Numbered from the stretch's first letter, positions 29,942 through 43,810 are shown. The stretch: 43,945 nucleotides of DNA from Bacillota bacterium (GCA_021324255.1 JAJPJL010000032.1:1-43945); one strand, 5' to 3'. Notes: generated by a model not told the origin, from the sequence alone. Numbers and translations are program-made.

Positions 29942-30181
29942 TCATTTCCGGTCGCGCTTCTCGCCCGCCCCCCGGCGGGCAGGTACGATATGAGCCCCTC
30001 GGCCCTTCCCCGCGATTTGAACATCGCCCGCGGCTTCGAGCTGTTTTATGAGCCGGTAGACTTGGATGCGGCTGAATCCCGAGATCCGCCGAATGTCAGC
30101 GTTCGAGAGCCTGCCGCGCTCCCTAAGAAGGGCCAAGATCCGAAGCCGGACATGCTCCTGTGGTCCGAGGGGCGCGCCAAT
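29942..30181 (-). pseudogene. C-terminal winged-helix remnant (AAA_4/AlbA-type ATP-binding regulator)
   Basis: About 80 codons are open, but only the wHTH end of a larger protein is recognisable: VRLRILALLRERGRLSNADI, then SGFSRIQVYRLIKQLEAAG and GKGRGAHIVPA. This looks like the extreme C-terminal domain of AlbA-type divergent AAA or Fic-like regulatory proteins. The rest of the gene is missing: upstream on the minus strand the frame stops at 30184 and the DNA belongs to a recombinase remnant on the other strand. The nearest start is a TTG at 30136 without a ribosome site. Probably a dead fragment. Confidence 0.6.
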
Positions 30182-30473
30182 TCACGCCAGCAACTTCTAT
30201 CGACGGGATCACTTGCCAAGACTCGCGCGGCTCGGTTTGCCACATTTTCGCATTCACGATTTCCGGCACTTCCACGCGACCTACCTGACGGCTGCGGGCG
30301 TGGACCCCAGGACCGCGGCCGATCGTCTCGGGCACACAGATCCCGGACTTTTCACCCGCACCTGTTCCCATGCCGTGGCGACGGCCCAAGAACGGGCCGC
30401 AGCGATTGCCAATGAATTGCCGACGAAAACCGGGCATTCTGGATGGCGAGTAGTAGTTGTTCAGAAAAATTGA
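30150..30473 (+). pseudogene. Truncated tyrosine recombinase (integrase) C-terminal fragment
   Basis: Only the last ~100 residues of a phage-type integrase remain: GAPIHASNFYRRDHLPRLAR, IHDFRHFHATYLTAAGVDPR (the H-x-x-R block) and DRLGHTDPGLFTRTCSHAV. The catalytic Tyr expected before SHAV is Cys (TGT, one transition from TAT), and the first catalytic Arg is absent because the N-terminal half is gone. It is therefore inactive. The fragment ends 7 bp from the 3' end of tRNA-Thr, the usual place for an integrase of a tRNA-targeting element. The open frame begins further left (30066), but no family similarity is seen there. Confidence 0.8.
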
Positions 30474-30924: not shown

Positions 30925-32646
30925 CTACCAGCCCATCGCGTACCCGTTCCGGCGTGGATCGGCGCCGCCACGCAACCAGCCGTCCTCGCCGACGACGATG
31001 CCCTGGGCGCCGCCGACGCGGACCGACCAGTCCTCGAGCACCTCGAGCTGGTAGCCGCGCGACGCGAGCGCGCGGCGCACGTCCGCCGCGAACCGTCCCT
31101 CCAGCAGCAGCGTCTCCGGCGGCAGTGGATCGCCGACATCGTCCTTCCACCGGAAGCGCGGCGCGGCGATCGCGTCCTGGATGTTGCGCCCGTAGTCGAC
31201 GAGCCCCACGATCACCTGCGCGGTCGTCTGGGGGATGCTGTAGGATCCCGGCGTCCCGATCAAAAACGCGATGCGGCCGCCTCGCGCGGCGTGGGCCGGC
31301 CCCAGCGGATCGATCCCGAAGGAGTGTGTGGGCGCCACCGGCACGCCGTGCAAGGAGAAACCGTGGACGGGCGACGACGGCGATTCGCGGCGCTTGTCGG
31401 GCGCGATGACCTTGGCGTCGCCCGGAACGAGCGTACACCAGTGGTGGCCGTTGTTCATCGTGATCCCGGTATCGCCGATGACGACCCCGGACCCGTAGCC
31501 GCTGCCGATCGTCTGGGTGATGTTGACGGCAAGGCCGCTCGCGTCGGCCGCGGCGAGGTGCGTCGTGGAACGCTCCGGGGCCTTCCGGGCGCGCCGCGCC
31601 GGCGCCCGCCGCCGCGAGGCGCGGCCGCGCGCCGCGTCGAGCCGCCGGTGCACCTCGGCGCGCAACTCGTCGATCCGCTCGTCCGACAGCATCCACGAGA
31701 TCGGCACGTCGACGAACGCGGGGTCCGCGACGTGGGCGGCCGCGTCCATCCGTGCCAGCCGGATGGCCTCGGCCGTCGCCGCCAGGTTGTCGGCCCCGAG
31801 TGGATCCCCGTCGCCGAGCGCGAACGCCTCGAGAATGCGCAGCGTCTGCAGCACCTGCACGGCGCTGCTCGGCGGCGGGGTGGTGCGAATCTGATAGCCG
31901 CGGTACGATGCGACGATCGGATCCTCCCAGCGGATGCTATCGGGGTAGGACCGCAAATCCTCGGCCGTGATGAGTCCGCCGTGCTCGCGGAAGTACGCGG
32001 CGATCGTCTCCCCGACGCGGCCGTGGTAGAAGCTCATCCAGCCCTCGGACGCGAGGGTGCGCAGGGTCGCGGCCAGCCCGGGCTGCCGGAGTATCTCACC
32101 CGGCTCATAGGGCCGCCCGTCCTTGAGAAAGGTGCGCGCCGCGTCCGGGCGCGGGGTGAGCCGGGCCACGGTTTGCGCCGTGCGCACGTGGTCGAAGTAG
32201 GTGACGGGCGAGCCCTGCTCGGCGAGCTCGATCGCCGGCTCGAGCACCTCGGCCAGCGGGAGGTGTCCATATTCGCCGTGGAGGCGCGCCCAGCCGGCGA
32301 CGTTCCCGGGCACCATCGGCGCGAGGATCCCGAGGTCTTGCGTCCGCTCGTCGAACAAATCGGGGCGGGCGGTGCGCGGGCTCCGCCCCATGAAATTGAG
32401 CGTGCGCGTCTCCCCGCCCGGGAGCGACAACACCGCGATGCCGATCCCGCCCGCGGAGGAGAAATACGGCTCGACGACCGTGACCGCCACGGCGGTCGCG
32501 ATCGCCGCATCCACTGCGTTGCCGCCCGCGGCGAACATCCGGAGGCCGGCCTGCGTGGCCAGGGGATTGGCCGATGCCACCATGCCCCGGCGCCCCATCG
32601 CGACAGGTCGAGGCCCGAACTCAGATGCGCCGCCGGCGTGTGCCAC
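30925..32646 (-). CDS. Gamma-glutamyltransferase-family protein (Ntn hydrolase)
   Basis: A 573-residue gamma-glutamyltranspeptidase. Early block GMVASANPLATQAGLRMFAAG, GGIGIAVLSLPGG, MVPGNVAGWARLHGEYG. The autocatalytic nucleophile is Thr361 in ERSTTHLAAADASGLAVN, and the late block is MNNGHHW then GTPGSYSIPQTTAQV. The proenzyme should cut itself before Thr361 and then hydrolyse or transfer gamma-glutamyl or a similar acyl group. No signal peptide is found from the chosen GTG (32646), which has GGAGGTG in place, so a cytoplasmic, YwrD-like member is suggested. The linker before Thr (RASRRRAPARRARKAP) is unusually basic. Upstream in-frame codons lack family features. Confidence 0.9.
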   Translation of the reverse strand: MAHAGGASEFGPRPVAMGRRGMVASANPLATQAGLRMFAAGGNAVDAAIATAVAVTVVEPYFSSAGGIGIAVLSLPGGETRTLNFMGRSPRTARPDLFDERTQDLGILAPMVPGNVAGWARLHGEYGHLPLAEVLEPAIELAEQGSPVTYFDHVRTAQTVARLTPRPDAARTFLKDGRPYEPGEILRQPGLAATLRTLASEGWMSFYHGRVGETIAAYFREHGGLITAEDLRSYPDSIRWEDPIVASYRGYQIRTTPPPSSAVQVLQTLRILEAFALGDGDPLGADNLAATAEAIRLARMDAAAHVADPAFVDVPISWMLSDERIDELRAEVHRRLDAARGRASRRRAPARRARKAPERSTTHLAAADASGLAVNITQTIGSGYGSGVVIGDTGITMNNGHHWCTLVPGDAKVIAPDKRRESPSSPVHGFSLHGVPVAPTHSFGIDPLGPAHAARGGRIAFLIGTPGSYSIPQTTAQVIVGLVDYGRNIQDAIAAPRFRWKDDVGDPLPPETLLLEGRFAADVRRALASRGYQLEVLEDWSVRVGGAQGIVVGEDGWLRGGADPRRNGYAMGW

Positions 32647-32800
32647 GCTGCACCTCCATGAAGTTCTGCGCCGAGCGCCGCGAGAGCTGCGCCCGGCCCC
32701 GTGCGAGGTTCTACGCTGCGCGGAGGTTTCCCTCGGCGCCGCGCGGGGGGAGTTGCGCGCTGCCGTGCGGAAGATACGTCGACGAACAGTCGGTGACCGT

Positions 32801-32829
32801 TTGACACCCTGTGGCATTCCGGAGATAAT
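32801..32829 (+). promoter_or_regulatory. Near-consensus sigma-70 promoter for the lipid-kinase cassette
   Basis: TTGACA at 32801-32806 (perfect -35), a 17-bp spacer and GATAAT at 32824-32829 (5/6 to TATAAT). It stands 65 bp before the start of the lipid kinase, whose AAGGAG ribosome site is at 32881-32886. Such a good match is rare in DNA this GC-rich, so it is probably the start of the three-gene transcript. Confidence 0.75.
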
Positions 32830-32893
32830 GGAGCGGTTACGCACACCCATTCCCGACGCAACCGCACATCGGATCCCATGAAGGAGTGATGGG

Positions 32894-33865
32894 ATGCCGG
32901 CGACTTTGATCGTCGCGAACCTCCGGTCCGGCGGCGGACGCGCGAGGGACGCGCTCCCGCTTGTCACGAGCGCGCTCCGGCGCGCCGGCCGCGTCTATGA
33001 TCTCGTGGTGGCCCCCACCGCGGAGGCGACGGCGCAACTCCTGTCCGCCTCGCTGCGGCGGGACGGGACAAGATTCGACCGGGTCGTCGTGCTCGGCGGC
33101 GACGGCACGATCAACGGTGCGGTCAACGGCATCTTGAACAGCGGTTCGACCCTACCGCTTGGCATCGTCCCCTGCGGCACCGGCAACGAGGTGGTCCGCT
33201 CGCTCGGCATTCCCAAAGATCCGGACAAGGCCGTGCGAATCCTGTCGCAGGGCCGCGAATGCGCGATCGACGTCGGCGTGGTGAACGGCCGTCACTTTCT
33301 CCACATCTTCGGGCTTGGCGCCGACGTACAGGTCGTCAAGATGGTAAACACCCTCCGCGCCCGGTACCGGCTGGCCCGGAATCGCTCGGTGTACTATGTG
33401 GCGGCGCTGCTCCTGCTCTCCTCGGGCTTCGACCCCTTCGCCGCGGAGATCGAAGTCGGCGACGAGGTCTTCCGCGGCAAGACGCTCATGATCGCCGCGG
33501 CCAACGGGCGGATGTACGGCGAGCGGCTGCAGGCGCTGCCCGCGCCGAGCCTCTCCGACGGGTTGCTGGACCTCTACCTGCTGCAAGATCTCGGCGGGCG
33601 GCGGCTGCGCAAGACCGCGCGGCTGCTGCGCCGTCTGCCCGTCCCCGAGCTCAGCGTGCAGCGCTGTCCCGAGGTGACGATTCGCCTGGATCAACGGCGC
33701 GAGGCGCAGGTCGACGGGAGCCTGCTCGGCCCCACCTACACGTTTCACCTGTCGCTCCTGCCGCGCCGCATCCGGGTCATCCACCCCGCGCCCCCGGCGC
33801 TGGCGGGCACGGCGCGCCACCGGGGGGAACCCGTCCGAGCCGGAGAGAGCAGCCCGCGCTGGTGA
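32894..33865 (+). CDS. Diacylglycerol/lipid kinase (DgkB/YegS family)
   Basis: A 323-residue soluble lipid kinase. ATP/lipid motif VVVLGGDGTINGAVNGIL (GGDGT at 68-72), LGIVPCGTGNEVVRSLGIP (GTGN at 95-98), then GLGADVQVV and the C-terminal strand block EAQVDGSLLG. It phosphorylates diacylglycerol or a related lipid alcohol with ATP at the membrane surface. The ATG has AAGGAG 7 bp before it and a strong promoter upstream. It overlaps the next gene by 4 bp. The ~30-residue C-terminal tail is low-complexity. Confidence 0.92.
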   Translation: MPATLIVANLRSGGGRARDALPLVTSALRRAGRVYDLVVAPTAEATAQLLSASLRRDGTRFDRVVVLGGDGTINGAVNGILNSGSTLPLGIVPCGTGNEVVRSLGIPKDPDKAVRILSQGRECAIDVGVVNGRHFLHIFGLGADVQVVKMVNTLRARYRLARNRSVYYVAALLLLSSGFDPFAAEIEVGDEVFRGKTLMIAAANGRMYGERLQALPAPSLSDGLLDLYLLQDLGGRRLRKTARLLRRLPVPELSVQRCPEVTIRLDQRREAQVDGSLLGPTYTFHLSLLPRRIRVIHPAPPALAGTARHRGEPVRAGESSPRW

Positions 33866-35040
33866 CCCGGATGCGTCTCTCGATCCTGTCCTGCAACTAC
33901 GGCGGCGGGCACAAGCGCGTCGGCGAGGCGATCGCCGCGGAATGGGAGGCCCATACCGGCGGCCGGGCGGAGATCGTGGATTACTTCGCGCGCTTCGTCC
34001 ACCCGGTGTTCGACGCCGTGACGAAGTTCTCGTACATTCAGAGCGTGCGCCGGGCGCCGATGATGTACGGCATGTTCTACAAGGTGACCGGCGACATTCG
34101 CCCCGACTCCCTGGTGCAGCGCGCCATCAACCGCATGGGGATGGAACGCCTGGACCGATACCTCGGGGACGAGCGCCCCGACGTCGTCTGCTGCGTGCAC
34201 TGCACGCCCGCGGGGACGATGTCGGATCTCAAAATCGCGGGCCGCACGGCGGTTCCCTGTCTCACGGTGATCACAGACTACGTCACCCACAGCCAGTGGA
34301 TCCACCCGCGCGTCGAGCGCTACTGCGTACCCAACGCGCTCGTGCGGGACGGATTGATCGAGCGCGGCATCGCGCCGGAATCGATCGCCGTCACGGGATT
34401 GCCGATCGAGCGCAAGTTTACGCGGCCGCTGGACCGCCGGGCGCTCATGGCGAAGTTCGGGCTCGTCCCGGACGTGCCCGTGATGCTCGTCATGGCCGGC
34501 GCCTACGCCATGCTCGGCGGGGTCGGCGACGTGGTCCGGGTCCTGGCGCGCTTCCCGCGGCCGCTGCAAGGGCTCGTGGTGTGCGGGTACGATCGCCGCC
34601 TCGAGGAGCAGGTGCGGGCGCGAACGGCCCGATCGCCCCACCCGTTTCAGGTCTTCGGCTACGTGGACAACGTGGAAGAGCTGATGACGGTCAGCGACCT
34701 GCTCATCACGAAGGCCGGCGGCGTCACGGTCAGCGAGGCGCTCGAGAAGCGGCTGCCGATGCTGATCTACCGGCCCATCCCCGGCCAGGAGGAAGGCAAC
34801 ACCCGCTTCTTGCTCGACCGCGGGGCCGCGCTCGCGGCGAAGGGGCCGGCCGACCTCCATGCCGCCCTGGAGGGCCTCCTGCGCCTGCCGGAGCGCCTCG
34901 CCGCGATGAAGCGCGCCGCGGCGCACCTCGCCCGCCCGGACGCCGCGTCCGCGGTCGTACGGCACCTCGTCGCGCTCACCGGCCGCCGGGCGGAGGCGAT
35001 CGGCGAACCCGTCCCCGTGGTCCCGTCCATCACGCCCTGA
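33862..35040 (+). CDS. UgtP/MGDG-synthase-like glycosyltransferase (GT28)
   Basis: A 392-residue GT-B enzyme. N-terminal MGDG-synthase-like domain: LSILSCNYGGGHKRVGEAIA, VDYFARFVHPVFDAVTKFSY, VVCCVHCTPAGTMSDL, ITDYVTHSQWIHPRVERYCV. C-terminal nucleotide-sugar domain: VFGYVDNVEELMTVSDLLIT, KAGGVTVSEAL, IPGQEEGN. This pattern is that of enzymes that glycosylate diacylglycerol (UgtP/YpfP, MGDG synthase), consistent with the lipid kinase directly upstream. GTG 33862 overlaps the kinase stop (GTGA); ATG 33871 is an alternative. Its own stop overlaps the following MFS start (TGATG). The sugar donor is not readable. Confidence 0.85.
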   Translation: MTRMRLSILSCNYGGGHKRVGEAIAAEWEAHTGGRAEIVDYFARFVHPVFDAVTKFSYIQSVRRAPMMYGMFYKVTGDIRPDSLVQRAINRMGMERLDRYLGDERPDVVCCVHCTPAGTMSDLKIAGRTAVPCLTVITDYVTHSQWIHPRVERYCVPNALVRDGLIERGIAPESIAVTGLPIERKFTRPLDRRALMAKFGLVPDVPVMLVMAGAYAMLGGVGDVVRVLARFPRPLQGLVVCGYDRRLEEQVRARTARSPHPFQVFGYVDNVEELMTVSDLLITKAGGVTVSEALEKRLPMLIYRPIPGQEEGNTRFLLDRGAALAAKGPADLHAALEGLLRLPERLAAMKRAAAHLARPDAASAVVRHLVALTGRRAEAIGEPVPVVPSITP

Positions 35041-36191
35041 TGCTGCGCAGCGAGACCGGGCTCCTGGCGGTCTCCATCGCGCTCGTGGAATTCGTTCACG
35101 GGGCGTTGCTGTTCGTGCTTCTTCCCACGATCCTGACGCAGCGGTTCGGCTGGGCCATGGGCACCACGGGAGCCGCCGTGTCCACGTACTTCTTTGCCGA
35201 AGTGGCGTTGAAGCTCGTCGCCGGGTGGATGGTCGACCGCATGGGGACACGGAAGATGCTGCTCTACGGGTTTTGGCTGTACTTCGCGTCGTTCGTGGCG
35301 CTCCTCACGTCCCGCAGCACGTGGCAGGTGTTCATTGCGCTGGCCGTGATGGGGGCCGCGGCCTCGCCGTTGTGGCCGGCGGCCCTGACGCGGGTGACCA
35401 AGGGCGCCGGTTCCGCGATGGGCGGGGTCCTCGGCCGGGTCTTCTCCGTGTGGTTTCTGGGCGGCGGGGCCGGGATCGGCCTGGCCACGCTCATCAGCCG
35501 CGCGGCGCACCCGATCTCCCTCGGCGTGTTCGTGGTCCCACTGCTCGCCGCCGCGCTGCTCGGCCTCCGCCTGCCGAGGGTGGAAACCGAGACGCCGCTG
35601 GCCCGGGTGTCGCCGGGCCAACTCGTTCCCTCGGTCGTGCGGGCGCTCGCCGCGCTCGCCACCAGCCTCGTACCGCAGATCATCGCCGCCGGCGTGCTCA
35701 TCCCCATCATCGTTCCCTACCTCGAGTTCGTGCGCGGGCTCGACGAACGGGAGCTGTTTTTGCTACTGATTCTCGGCCCCGGCAGCGCGCTCGTGCTGAT
35801 GGAGCGGGCCGGTCACATCGGGGACCGCTTCGGCCGGCAGCGGACGTACAGCCTCGGCCTCGGGAGTGTCGCGTTGTTGCTGTTGCTGCTGCCGTTCTGC
35901 CGCGAGCTGTGGCAGTTGGTCCTGGACTTCATCGGCATCGGCGTCGCCTACGCGTTCGTCCTCCCGGCCTGGAACAGCATCATGCTCCGCCTGCTGCCGG
36001 ACGAGGTCCGCGGCGCCGGGCTCGGCGTGGCGATGACGATCGAGGGGATGGGCGGGGTGATCGGGCCGCTCGTCGGCGGCGCCCTGTGGCAATGGGCGAA
36101 CCCCTCCTCGCCGTTCTACGTGAGCGGCGGGCTTCTGCTCATCGCCGCCGGCACGTCCGCGCGGTGGCGCTCCGATCTGGTCGAGGGCTGA
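35040..36191 (+). CDS. MFS transporter, possible glycolipid flippase (LtaA-like role)
   Basis: A 383-residue major facilitator protein with about 11-12 helices. First half: GLLAVSIALVEFVHGALLFV, FFAEVALKLVAGWMVDRMGTRKML (the loop 2-3 MFS motif), AAASPLWPAAL. Second half: ERAGHIGDRFGRQR (loop 8-9 motif), FIGIGVAYAFVLPAWNS, EGMGGVIGPLVGG. Its ATG overlaps the stop of the glycolipid glycosyltransferase, so they are made together. In Staphylococcus the ypfP-ltaA pair has the same make-then-flip logic, with an MFS flippase for diglucosyl-diacylglycerol. Assignment of that role here is an inference from order, not from a diagnostic residue. Confidence 0.75.
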   Translation: MLRSETGLLAVSIALVEFVHGALLFVLLPTILTQRFGWAMGTTGAAVSTYFFAEVALKLVAGWMVDRMGTRKMLLYGFWLYFASFVALLTSRSTWQVFIALAVMGAAASPLWPAALTRVTKGAGSAMGGVLGRVFSVWFLGGGAGIGLATLISRAAHPISLGVFVVPLLAAALLGLRLPRVETETPLARVSPGQLVPSVVRALAALATSLVPQIIAAGVLIPIIVPYLEFVRGLDERELFLLLILGPGSALVLMERAGHIGDRFGRQRTYSLGLGSVALLLLLLPFCRELWQLVLDFIGIGVAYAFVLPAWNSIMLRLLPDEVRGAGLGVAMTIEGMGGVIGPLVGGALWQWANPSSPFYVSGGLLLIAAGTSARWRSDLVEG

Positions 36192-36231: not shown

Positions 36232-37578
36232 ATGATCAACGCAGCCGCCTTCGCCCGCGGCCGGGTCCACTACGGCTGGATCGTGGTGGCCGTCACGTTT
36301 CTCGTGCTGCTCGTGGCCGCGGGGATCCGATCCACGCCGGGCGTCCTCATTGTTCCGCTGGAGCGCGAGTTCGGGTGGAGCCGCGCGGCGATCTCCCTGG
36401 CCGTCTCGATCAACCTGCTGCTCTACGGGCTGCTGGGACCCTTTGCCGCGGCGCTCATGGACCGGTTCGGGGCCCGCCGCATCACCCTCGCCGCGCTCAG
36501 CGTGCTCGCGGTCGGCGTGGGCCTGACGACGTTCATGCGCACGCCGTGGCAGCTCGATCTGCTGTGGGGCCTCGTCGTCGGCGTGGGCTCGGGGTCGACG
36601 GCCACGGTGCTGGGCGCGTGGATCAGCAATCGCTGGTTCGACCGGCAGCGCGGCCTGGTCATGGGGGTGCTGACGGCGAGCACGGCGACCGGTCAGCTCG
36701 TGTTTCTCCCCATCCTGGCGCGCATCGTGGTCACGTCCGGGTGGAGAGCCGCGGCGCTCGTGATCGCTGCCGCGGCGGTGTGCGCCGTGCCGCTCGTGGC
36801 CGTCTTCATGCGGAACGATCCACGCGAGGTGGCCCTCCGGCCGTTCGGCGCGCCGAGCGGCGGGCCGGAGCCGCCGCGGCCGCCGGCCCGCGCCGCGGGC
36901 GCCGCGATTCAGGGACTGGCGGCCGGCTTACGGTCCCGGGATTTCTGGCTGCTCGCCGGCACCTTTTACATCTGCGGGGCCAGCACCAACGGGTTGATCG
37001 GCACGCATTTCATCCCGGCGTGCACGGAGTTCGGAATTCCCGAGGTCACGGCGGCCGGCTTGCTGGCGTCCATGGGCGTCTTCGACCTCCTGGGGACGAC
37101 GGTCTCCGGCTGGCTCTCGGACCGGTGGAACAACCGCTATCTCTTGTGCTGGTACTACGGCCTTCGCGGCCTGTCGCTGATCTTCTTGCCGGTCGCGTTC
37201 GGTGCGCAACTCCTCTTCCTGCCCGCCGCCGCGCCGTCCTTCGGGCCGAGGTTCGCCGGGCTGGTGGTGTTTGCGGTATTCTACGGTCTCGACTGGGTTG
37301 CCACGGTACCGCCGACCGTGCGACTCACCGCTGATCTGTTCGGCAAGGAAAACGCGGCCCTGATGTTCGGATGGATCTTCGCGGCCCACCAGCTGGGGGC
37401 GGCGACCGCCGCGTTCGGTGCGGGCCTGGTGCATATGTGGCTGGGCAGTTACCCGGTAGCCTTCGTCACATCGGGCGCGCTGTGCTTGTGCGCGGCCGGG
37501 CTCGTGCTCCGCATCGGCTATCCGGGCGCCCGACCGGCCGCGCCGCTCCGGCCGGTCCAGGCCGGCGCCACTGCGTGA
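36232..37578 (+). CDS. MFS transporter, monocarboxylate/oxalate-formate-antiporter-like
   Basis: A 448-residue MFS carrier with 12 predicted helices. VHYGWIVVAVTFLVLLVAAG, PLEREFGWSRAAISLAVSIN and GPFAAALMDRFGARRITLAA are the usual first-half signatures of the OFA/MCT group; GWLSDRWNNRYLL and DLFGKENAALMFGWIFAAHQ occur in the second half. A long Pro-rich central loop (GPEPPRPPARAAG) separates the halves. It probably moves an organic anion; the substrate is unknown. AGGAGG lies before the ATG. It follows the first MFS gene by 40 bp and may be read from the same promoter. Confidence 0.87.
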   Translation: MINAAAFARGRVHYGWIVVAVTFLVLLVAAGIRSTPGVLIVPLEREFGWSRAAISLAVSINLLLYGLLGPFAAALMDRFGARRITLAALSVLAVGVGLTTFMRTPWQLDLLWGLVVGVGSGSTATVLGAWISNRWFDRQRGLVMGVLTASTATGQLVFLPILARIVVTSGWRAAALVIAAAAVCAVPLVAVFMRNDPREVALRPFGAPSGGPEPPRPPARAAGAAIQGLAAGLRSRDFWLLAGTFYICGASTNGLIGTHFIPACTEFGIPEVTAAGLLASMGVFDLLGTTVSGWLSDRWNNRYLLCWYYGLRGLSLIFLPVAFGAQLLFLPAAAPSFGPRFAGLVVFAVFYGLDWVATVPPTVRLTADLFGKENAALMFGWIFAAHQLGAATAAFGAGLVHMWLGSYPVAFVTSGALCLCAAGLVLRIGYPGARPAAPLRPVQAGATA

Positions 37579-40226: not shown

Positions 40227-42239
40227 GTGACGGAGGATGCGGCCGAACCCGTAGCGCGCCTGGACCTGGCGCCTCCTCTGCTCGGCTTTCTCGATGCCCT
40301 GCTTCGCCGCGAGTGGCTGGTCACGAACGGCCGGGGCGGGTACGCGTCGGGTACGGTGGCCGGAGCGAACACGCGCCGCTACCACGGGCTGCTGGTCGCG
40401 GCGCTCCAGCCGCCGGTCCGTCGTACGGTCCTCCTGGCGAAGATCGACGAGACCGTGGAGCTCGGCGGGCGCGCGTTCGAGCTCGGGACGAACGAATACC
40501 ATGACGGCACGATCGCCCCGGAGGGGTACCGGCACCTTGCCGGCTTCCGGTTGGAGGGCACGCTCCCGGTCTGGACGTACGCGCTTCACGGCGCGCAGGT
40601 AGAGAAACAGGTGTGGATGCCGCGGGGGTGCGACGCGGTCTGTGTCCGGTATCGCATCCTCGGCGCCGCCGGCCCGCTGCGGCTCCGGCTTCGCCCGTTT
40701 GTGACGGAGCGCGACTACCACGCGCACACCCGCGGCGATCCCGGCTGGCGCTTTGGCGTGGAGGAGATCCCGGGAGGCGTGCGCGTCGTCCCGTGGCAGG
40801 GCGCCACGCCCTACACGCTCACCGTCAAGGGTGCGGCGTTTGCCCCGGCGCCGGACTGGTACTGGCGGTTCCTTCACCGTGTCGAGCGTGCGCGCGGGCT
40901 CGACGACGTGGAAGACCTGTACGTGCCGGGCACCTTCGAGGCCATGCTCGATGCGGGGCAGGCGCTCACGTTCGTCGCGGCGGCCGGCGACGGCCCGCCG
41001 CCGGCCGGGTGCGGGTCCCTCGCGGCCGAAGCGCGGCGGCAGCGGCGGCTGCTGGAGGTCGGCGACCGGCTGGCCCGCGACAGCGTCCCGCTTCCCGGAC
41101 CCGGCGGGCTCCCGCCGCGGCTCCTGCTCGCGGCGGACCAGTTTCTCGTCCGCGGCGCGGCGCGGCGGTCGGTCATCGCGGGCTACCACTGGTTTACCGA
41201 CTGGGGCCGGGACACGATGATCGCGCTGCCGGGGTTGACGCTCGCCACGGGCCGGCTCGAGGAGGCACGCGACATTCTCCTTTCGTACGCGGACCACGTG
41301 AGCGAGGGTATGCTGCCGAACCGCTTCCCCGACGACGGCGGCGCGCCCGAGTACACAAGCGCGGACGCCGCGCTGTGGTACGTGCACGCGGTGGGACGGT
41401 ACCTGTCGCGCGCGGGAGACGGGGATCTGCTCGCACGCGTGTTCCCGGCGATTCGCGAGATCGTGGACCGGTACCGGGCCGGCACGCGGCACGGCATTCG
41501 CGTCGACCCCGCGGACGGTCTGCTGGAGACGGGCGCCCCGGAGCTCGCGCTCACGTGGATGGACGCCCGTCGCGAGGGACGCCCGGTCACGCCCCGCACG
41601 GGTAAGCCCGTGGACCTCAACGCCCTGTGGCATGAGGCCCTCTGGCTTGCGGCCGCGTGGGCGAATGCGCTGGGGCAGGATGGATCCACGGACGCCGCCG
41701 CCGCCGCCGCCCTGCGCCGGTCCTTCACGCCGCGCTTCTTCGACGACACGGGCGGATACTTGTACGATGTGATCCGTCCGGACGGGACTCCGGACACGTC
41801 GCTGAGACCCAACCAGCTGCTTGCGCTGTCCCTGCCGCACCCGCTCGTCGAGGGCCCCACGGCCCGCACCGTGTTCGACACCGTGACGGCCCGCCTGCTC
41901 ACCCCATTCGGCCTGCGCACGCTTGCGTCCGACGCGCCCGACTACCGCGGGCGGTACGAGGGGGATGTCCCGGCCCGCGACGGCGCGTACCATCAAGGCA
42001 CGGTCTGGACGTGGTGGCTCGCGCCCTACGCCGCGGCGCTCGTGCGCCTGACGGGCGACCGCCGGGCGGCGCGCCGGCTGCTCGAGCCGTTCCGGGCGCA
42101 CCTGCTCGAGGCCGGGCTGGGGACCGTCTCCGAGCTCTTCGACGGCGACTCGCCCCACGACGCCCGCGGGTGCATCGCCCAAGCATGGAGCGTCGCCGCC
42201 CTCCTGGACGTGTGGCACCTGGCCGGGGAGGCACCGTGA
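40227..42239 (+). CDS. Glycogen debranching enzyme, archaeal/bacterial amylo-alpha-1,6-glucosidase type
   Basis: A 670-residue enzyme. The N-terminal beta domain has REWLVTNGRGGYASGTVAGA and NTRRYHGLLVAAL, diagnostic of the family. The C-terminal alpha/alpha barrel holds GYHWFTDWGRDTMIALPG, NRFPDDGGAPEYTSADAALW, LETGAPELALTWMDA and GAYHQGTVWTWW, which include the catalytic acids. It hydrolyses alpha-1,6 links in glycogen-like glucans and can have related alpha-glucosidase activity. No signal peptide. GTG 40227 is directly after the trxB unit. It shares GTGA with the following small gene, so translation is coupled. Confidence 0.92.
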   Translation: MTEDAAEPVARLDLAPPLLGFLDALLRREWLVTNGRGGYASGTVAGANTRRYHGLLVAALQPPVRRTVLLAKIDETVELGGRAFELGTNEYHDGTIAPEGYRHLAGFRLEGTLPVWTYALHGAQVEKQVWMPRGCDAVCVRYRILGAAGPLRLRLRPFVTERDYHAHTRGDPGWRFGVEEIPGGVRVVPWQGATPYTLTVKGAAFAPAPDWYWRFLHRVERARGLDDVEDLYVPGTFEAMLDAGQALTFVAAAGDGPPPAGCGSLAAEARRQRRLLEVGDRLARDSVPLPGPGGLPPRLLLAADQFLVRGAARRSVIAGYHWFTDWGRDTMIALPGLTLATGRLEEARDILLSYADHVSEGMLPNRFPDDGGAPEYTSADAALWYVHAVGRYLSRAGDGDLLARVFPAIREIVDRYRAGTRHGIRVDPADGLLETGAPELALTWMDARREGRPVTPRTGKPVDLNALWHEALWLAAAWANALGQDGSTDAAAAAALRRSFTPRFFDDTGGYLYDVIRPDGTPDTSLRPNQLLALSLPHPLVEGPTARTVFDTVTARLLTPFGLRTLASDAPDYRGRYEGDVPARDGAYHQGTVWTWWLAPYAAALVRLTGDRRAARRLLEPFRAHLLEAGLGTVSELFDGDSPHDARGCIAQAWSVAALLDVWHLAGEAP

Positions 42240-42556: not shown

Positions 42557-43663
42557 CTAGGTCAGGAAGCGACCGCCTCGATAGACGACCTCGCCGTCGG
42601 CGTAGACTTCCGCGCCGCTGTCGCGCAGATCCAGGATCATGTCCCAGTGGAGCCCCGAGGTGTTTTTGCCTCCGGTCTCGGGGTACGCGGCGCCAAATGC
42701 CATGTGCAATGTACCCCCGATCTTTTCGTCGAAGAGGATGTTGCGGGTGAACTGCTGGATGTTGTAGTTCAGGCCGAACGCGAACTCGCCGAGGACCCGC
42801 GCCCCCGCGTCGACGTCGAGCATCGCCCGGAGAAACTCCTCCCCCTTGGCGGCCGCCGCCGAGACGACTCGCCCGCCCTCGAACGAGACATGGACGTCGC
42901 TCACCTCACGGCCGCCGTAGATCGCCGGGAACGTGAACCGCACCGTGCCCTGGGTCGCATCCTCGACCGGACCGGTAAAGACTTCGCCGTCGGGGAAGTT
43001 GTGGGTACCCGCGGCGCTGATCCAGCGCCGGCCTTCCACCGATACCGTGAGATCCGTATCGGGCGCCACGATGCGGAGCGTCCGCACCCGCCCAAGCCGG
43101 TCGCAGATCCCGTCTTGCTCGCGCGCGACCCGCTGCCAGGCCGAGACGGGATCGTCCTCGTCGAGGCGCCCGGCGCGGTAGACGAAATCCTCGTACTCGC
43201 CGAGCGACATCTCGGCTTCCTGAGCGTCTGCCTGCGTCGGCGCCTGCGTCAGGCACCACCGAAGGGCGCCGCTGGCCGCGCGCTCCATGAATCGCCGACT
43301 CAGATCGCTCGTGGCCTCCCGCCGGAGGCGCATTCGCCGCGGGTCCACACGGGTAAGCGCCCGCGTGTTGTAGGCGCCGAGGAGCGACACCTCCGCGTCG
43401 ACCGTCTCCATCTCGTGCCGGTCCAAGGGGGAAACGTAGCGGAGCTGATCGTCGCTCGCGATCCGGTAATACAGCTCCTCGATGCCGTCGATGCCGGCGC
43501 GAACGACGGGGTGGGCGCCGGCCTCCAGCGCCGTCCGGTAGAGCGCGAGGATCTGCGGCGCCGCCAGCGCCGATCCCCTGATGCGCACCAGCTGGCCACG
43601 CTGCAGCTCGAGGGAGTAGTGCACCAAAACGCTGGCGAGCTTCTCGACACGGGGGTCCGTCAT
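42557..43663 (-). CDS. Aminopeptidase, peptidase family M29
   Basis: A 368-residue M29 metallo-aminopeptidase (AmpT/AmpS/PepS family). The N-terminal domain begins TDPRVEKLASVLVHYSLELQ. Metal and catalytic features lie in NFPDGEVFTGPVEDATQGTV, VLGEFAFGLN (Glu), DEKIGGTLHMAFGAAYPETG and the end SGLHWDMILDLR (His-Trp-Asp). It removes N-terminal residues from peptides with two metal ions. No signal peptide, so cytoplasmic, as in the Thermus and Bacillus relatives. ATG 43663 is supported by the N-terminal match. It is convergent with the debranching-enzyme unit. Confidence 0.93.
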   Translation of the reverse strand: MTDPRVEKLASVLVHYSLELQRGQLVRIRGSALAAPQILALYRTALEAGAHPVVRAGIDGIEELYYRIASDDQLRYVSPLDRHEMETVDAEVSLLGAYNTRALTRVDPRRMRLRREATSDLSRRFMERAASGALRWCLTQAPTQADAQEAEMSLGEYEDFVYRAGRLDEDDPVSAWQRVAREQDGICDRLGRVRTLRIVAPDTDLTVSVEGRRWISAAGTHNFPDGEVFTGPVEDATQGTVRFTFPAIYGGREVSDVHVSFEGGRVVSAAAAKGEEFLRAMLDVDAGARVLGEFAFGLNYNIQQFTRNILFDEKIGGTLHMAFGAAYPETGGKNTSGLHWDMILDLRDSGAEVYADGEVVYRGGRFLT

Positions 43664-43733
43664 GCCAACCGGTTCGCCCGGAGACGCCAGCTTCCCTCGC
43701 CGCGCCGCGCAGACACGCCGGGTCCCGGCACGC

Positions 43734-43773
43734 GTGTACGACGGCCGATCCCTGTGTACGACGGCCGATCCCT
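43734..43773. repeat. Two exact tandem copies of a 20-mer
   Basis: GTGTACGACGGCCGATCCCT stands twice in direct succession (43734-43753 and 43754-43773), between the aminopeptidase start and the terminator-like hairpin. It lies in the promoter region of the aminopeptidase on the minus strand. It may be a duplicated operator or a slippage product. Confidence 0.9.
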
Positions 43774-43785
43774 TTCGAAGACGAA

Positions 43786-43810
43786 GGGCGCCGCTCTCTG
43801 AGCAGCGCCC
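43786..43810 (-). terminator. Hairpin downstream of the lysine-rich mini-gene
   Basis: GGGCGCCGCT (43786-43795) and AGCAGCGCCC (43801-43810) form a 10-bp stem with one mismatch and a CTCTG loop. On the minus strand it follows the mini-gene stop by 28 bases and is followed by TTCGTCTTCG, a weakly T-rich tail, so terminator function is plausible. Confidence 0.6.

Follow-up and report, generated by a model that had tools for sequence, protein, structure and literature searches.

The window, that is the whole stretch of 43,945 nucleotides analysed here, carries a cassette of three closely joined genes on one strand behind a sigma-70-type promoter (Table 1). Gene 1 encodes a protein of the YegS/DgkB family with a lipid-kinase fold, gene 2 a UgtP/MGDG-synthase-type glycosyltransferase (GT) and gene 3 an LtaA-type MFS protein, a putative glycolipid flippase. 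A consensus search found two promoter-like sites in 13.5 kb, compared to 0.7 expected. In other genera of the same family (f1), TTGACA and ATAAT stand in register 5' of the kinase gene, and most of the DNA around them has diverged. The MFS start codon and the GT stop codon have one base in common (TGATG), and an alternative GTG start of the GT gene overlaps the kinase stop as GTGA. Joins between the cassette genes are overlapping or abutting in most relatives, GT-MFS joins being mostly overlapping. A first-pass annotation of this DNA had described the near-consensus promoter, both overlaps and the three product classes; all are borne out, the products by domain and NCBIfam searches, with the GTGA join depending on the alternative start.

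Table 1. Coordinates of the cassette, of neighbouring features in the window and of two related loci
Feature	Position	Strand	Remarks
Promoter TTGACA-17-GATAAT, sigma-70-type	32801..32829	+	11/12 consensus positions
Gene 1, YegS/DgkB-family lipid-kinase-fold protein	32894..33865	+	323 aa; DAGK_cat + YegS_C
Gene 2, UgtP/MGDG-synthase-type GT	33871-35040 (ATG) or 33862-35040 (GTG)	+	
Gene 3, LtaA-type MFS, putative glycolipid flippase	35040..36191	+	383 aa
P0004, second MFS gene, lactate/oxalate-formate type	36232..37578	+	SfMCT 3.9e-39; no LtaA match
Gamma-glutamyltranspeptidase gene	30925-32967	-	PF01019, 9.8e-116
ORF resembling tyrosine recombinase C-terminal part	30066-30473	+	
Archaeal-type glycogen debranching enzyme	40227-42239	+	TIGR01561, 439 bits
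ORF, possibly a chance frame	42647-43801	+	384 aa; no Pfam or NCBIfam match
GT paralogue in the same genome (L206)	G000:C46:48716-49848		Broken into two frames by a frameshift or an assembly error
PAP2-GT frame of G036	L023 1468-3306	-	

The second MFS gene, P0004, starts 40 nt 3' of the cassette MFS gene. By tblastn it occupies that place only in the window's genus (the window and L033/L004), most relatives having a polysaccharide deacetylase gene there. Being confined to one genus and MCT-like, P0004 was rejected as part of the conserved unit. On the other side, a gamma-glutamyltranspeptidase gene is divergent from the cassette; as the first start of its frame would make it overlap gene 1, the real one is probably further in. 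Beyond it, an ORF inspected by eye resembles the C-terminal part of a tyrosine recombinase (HDFRHFHATYL...DRLGHTDPG) and is possibly an integrase remnant. The glycogen debranching enzyme gene lies 3' of pyruvate kinase and thioredoxin reductase genes.

The GT has both domains of the MGD1/UgtP glycosyltransferases, MGDG_synth (3.7e-27) and Glyco_tran_28_C (GT28 C-terminal), and the GGGH motif, with its His, and the PxPGQE motif are conserved. Its best NCBIfam match is UgtP (PRK13609) at 292.5 bits, below the equivalog cut-off of 500. Structures 9wde and 4wyi were matched in the PDB, the GT aligning to the processive diacylglycerol (DAG) beta-glucosyltransferase 9wde at 2.8e-47 and to plant MGD1 at 5.8e-30.

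The best solved relative of the cassette MFS protein is Staphylococcus aureus LtaA (6s7v, 2.7e-24), followed by NorA (2.9e-9). When LtaA was used in a reverse search among 46 other MFS proteins, all 20 cassette proteins scored 74-108 bits and were followed by MdtG at 39, the identity between LtaA and cassette proteins being about 22-30%. In a maximum-likelihood tree, LtaA and the 20 cassette proteins formed one clade (100/100) apart from 26 other MFS proteins, namely the ten nearest paralogues of the order, P0004 and 15 Escherichia coli transporters of drugs, sugars, phosphate and lysophospholipids (SetA, SotB, MdfA, EmrD, MdtG/H, LplT, GlpT and others). End branches in this tree are long, and LtaA, represented by a partial sequence from the 6s7v alignment that may lack a residue, falls inside or beside the cassette group. 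The headgroup pocket of LtaA is lined by E32, R35, D68, W127 and W150 (PMC8866510). At these positions all 20 cassette proteins have E, R/H, D/E, W and W; the window's protein has E17, H20, E54, W112 and W138, of which H20 and E54 are conservative changes, and the R35 position is His in its family. The full set was found in none of the 15 E. coli proteins, and the nearest paralogues of the order are without R35 and W150. A grouping with drug or sugar exporters, which the first-pass annotation had named as evidence against its proposal, was thus not seen: the protein falls in the LtaA clade and keeps the LtaA pocket. LtaA is also the best NCBIfam match of the window's protein, and the LtaA model matches all 20 cassette members; since the score of 100.8 bits lies below the equivalog cut-off of 450, we call the protein LtaA-like rather than an LtaA equivalog. 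Two further LtaA-like proteins in one other family (L241 and L242, left out of the tree) score 103-106 bits with LtaA, have K at the R35 position and S/A at the W150 position, and have no GT within 1.5 kb.

Whether the genes are kept together in relatives had been set beforehand as a refutation test of the first-pass annotation. Among the order's 43 genomes analysed, a close GT relative at such a locus (at least 332 bits with P0002, the GT) occurs in 21, and in 19 of these 21 the kinase, GT and MFS genes follow one another on one strand. These 19 genomes belong to three families (12 to f1, that of the window, one to f3 and six to f4), and their MFS identities go down to about 35%. One exception, G023, has kinase and GT genes followed by a deacetylase gene, with no MFS gene; flipping by the cassette MFS protein is therefore not obligatory for GT function. 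The other, G036, has a PAP2 phosphatase domain and the GT in one open frame that replaces the kinase, followed by MFS and deacetylase genes. An MFS profile search of the order returned 20 matches at 451-591 bits, all beside a GT at these loci, the next match scoring 177 bits. Outside the order, neither the kinase nor the MFS gene of the cassette was found beside the GT at any of 54 GT loci from a survey of 386 genomes across bacteria, with up to 3.5 kb read on each side and positive controls detected; the staphylococcal ypfP-ltaA pair is not counted in these 54. Searches of the open-licence literature brought up no account of a cassette of kinase, GT and MFS genes, of a diderm that has LtaA or of ykoN/ykoP in such an architecture.

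A polysaccharide deacetylase gene (PF01522, NodB-type) lies 3' of the MFS gene at 15 of the 19 complete loci, and also at both incomplete ones. Its product has one hydrophobic N-terminal stretch and conserved TFDDGP, histidine-pair, RPPWG and LHD motifs. In several relatives a YkoP-domain gene (PF22790) lies near the deacetylase gene, which may link these loci to the YkoP-domain loci of Bacillus subtilis. The window's own locus has neither gene. Besides the window's genome (G000), the cassette loci of G001, G003 and G004 are without a deacetylase gene; for G003 and G004 about 300 bases past the MFS gene are covered, which would show a deacetylase start at the usual distance but not farther away. 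All four genomes have a GT paralogue elsewhere. In G000, G001 and G003 this paralogue is adjoined by a deacetylase gene and a YkoP-domain gene (convergent in G000, beside L206); the G004 contig stops at that point.

The host genome is a metagenome-assembled genome of 3.7 Mb (94.85% complete). Among named relatives it is closest to 'Terrabacteria group bacterium ANGP1' and metagenome-assembled genomes akin to it, mostly from soil. From the relatives' names and published naming, the host phylum is most likely the uncultured Sysuimicrobiota (CSP1-3), with one class and one order. The genome encodes Omp85/BamA (1.9e-33) and LpxC (6.8e-84), and judged by these two genes the host is an LPS-bearing diderm. 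The LtaS-type sulfatase family (PF00884) gave no match in this genome, in a search that detected its positive controls. It is therefore unlikely that the lipid serves as a lipoteichoic-acid anchor, and recycled DAG, which the first-pass annotation had proposed as the substrate source, is left without an evident origin. Neither the diderm LPS envelope nor the deacetylase's place in the conserved unit was noted in that annotation.

Gene 1 resembles the soluble lipid kinases DgkB, YegS and BmrU in fold and in most of the active site. It matches TIGR00147 at 138.8 bits (cut-off 118.65) and DAGK_cat at 5.4e-27, and retains GGDGT, IDVG and DGLLD motifs. In a mapping to 2qv7, where an alignment offset of 22 puts DgkB D68, D124 and D216 on the GGDGT, VDIG and DDG motifs, D70, D126 and D222 of gene 1 are their retained equivalents. 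The cassette proteins differ from these kinases at two points. The first D of DDG is S, T, R or E throughout the cassette clade, and DgkB E273, in the C-terminal DGE motif, falls on S276 of gene 1. All 20 cassette kinases are without an acid at the latter position (Ser in 13, Asn in seven), whereas all 39 other kinases compared, including the second kinases of six f4 genomes and three solved structures, have one (Glu in 37, Asp in two). The cassette kinases form one clade (100/98), so that the change may be a single loss that was kept. Miller et al. 2008 reportedly assigned a catalytic role to DgkB E273, in the numbering used here. On that footing gene 1 may have lost its activity, or may work by an altered mechanism.

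The best explanation of these data, and in our judgement a probable one, is a make-and-flip glycolipid operon in an LPS diderm with no detected LtaS, in which gene 1 is an altered kinase or a sensor. From the gene order and the kinships of the products we infer a substrate, a direction of transport, a fate for the lipid and a role for gene 1, as follows. The GT would transfer sugar from a UDP-sugar onto DAG at the cytoplasmic face of the inner membrane, giving a glycosyl-diacylglycerol, and the LtaA-type protein would move this glycolipid, driven by protons, to the periplasmic leaflet. Given an LPS diderm in which no LtaS was found, the product would more likely serve as a bulk glycolipid of the membrane, or one of its outer leaflet, than as the anchor of a lipoteichoic acid. 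Gene 1 would more likely be an altered kinase, or a lipid- or nucleotide-sensing partner of the GT, than a normal DAG kinase forming phosphatidic acid. Counting against this explanation are the UgtP and LtaA scores, both far under their NCBIfam cut-offs, the low identity of the cassette proteins with LtaA, a fold comparison of the MFS model that did not pick out LtaA, and G023 with its GT but no MFS gene. The glycolipid cassette of the first-pass annotation survives as make-and-flip, to which the 19 genomes, the LtaA clade and the pocket residues point. Its kinase, pictured as a working DgkB-type enzyme that balances DAG against phosphatidic acid, does not, given the conserved Glu lost in every cassette member.

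Taken by themselves, the retained motifs and the TIGR00147 score of gene 1 would suggest an ordinary DAG kinase, one that turns spare DAG back into phosphatidic acid while the cassette balances phospholipid against glycolipid synthesis. A structural model of gene 1 aligns with DgkB at Z 26.4 and with SphK1 at Z 27.4, and the cassette kinase is the only TIGR00147 kinase in all 12 f1 genomes, where it may do the family's usual job; the f4 genomes have a canonical second copy. We nevertheless consider this unlikely, given the acidic position lost in the whole cassette clade and kept by second kinases of the same genomes, the lack of a detected LtaS to make a DAG surplus, and the PAP2 domain, which would form DAG, in the kinase's place in G036. 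Less probable still is that gene 3 encodes an exporter of drugs or other small molecules and sits in the operon by chance. Generic MFS efflux models do match its C-terminal half, and SotB, OxlT and NorA rank high in a fold comparison, which had many MFS chains tied at Z 35-39, singled out no family and did not have LtaA (6s7v) among the 50 matches listed. Against an exporter stand the LtaA clade with its conserved pocket and the position of every strong match beside a GT.

The deacetylase raises the possibility that the unit makes, flips and deacetylates, and its recurrence beside the GT suggests that the GT sugar may be an N-acetyl sugar that is later deacetylated. A membrane-anchored NodB-type enzyme would then yield an amino-glycolipid, and the window's genus would use its second GT-deacetylase-YkoP locus. 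We regard this as conceivable but doubtful. It would account for the deacetylase gene at most complete and both incomplete loci, for its conserved NodB motifs, and for the GT paralogues of the four genomes without a cassette deacetylase, three of them with deacetylase and YkoP-domain genes alongside; GT-deacetylase pairs also occur at three loci outside the order, in three genomes (L150, L153 and L154). However, the donor sugar and acceptor of the GT are not readable from sequence, the substrate of the deacetylase could be peptidoglycan or some other polymer, and the window's cassette has no deacetylase gene beside it. The charges that flank the hydrophobic N-terminal stretch, moreover, do not fix the membrane side on which the enzyme acts. 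More speculative, and in our view quite improbable, is a version for the LPS-diderm phylum as a whole, in which making, flipping and (where present) deacetylating would put an amino-glycolipid in the outer leaflet of the inner membrane or in the outer membrane, and the kinase fold would be a non-phosphorylating DAG/ATP sensor controlling the GT.

Returning to the make-and-flip operon, its closest known counterpart is S. aureus ypfP-ltaA, which encodes a diglucosyl-DAG synthase and the LtaA flippase: there, likewise, a UgtP-type GT gene is directly followed by an LtaA-clade MFS gene with the same pocket positions. The cassette differs in having a kinase-fold gene in front, in belonging to an LPS diderm that encodes LpxC and BamA and in which no LtaS-type sulfatase was found, in His for R35 in the window's family, and in the deacetylase as a fourth member in most relatives. 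By its gene content, the cassette appears to be a ypfP-ltaA-like arrangement in an LPS diderm without lipoteichoic acid. The setting in which LtaA flippases are known is the synthesis of lipoteichoic acid by Gram-positive bacteria. That a putative flippase of the LtaA clade is tied to a glycolipid synthase in a diderm with LPS and no detected LtaS suggests a greater age, or a wider use, for glycolipid flipping than for lipoteichoic acid. The 20 cassette kinases, for their part, are a natural set in which one conserved acid is lost and the rest of the site retained, and this clade allows a direct test of whether DgkB-family proteins serve in catalysis or in regulation.
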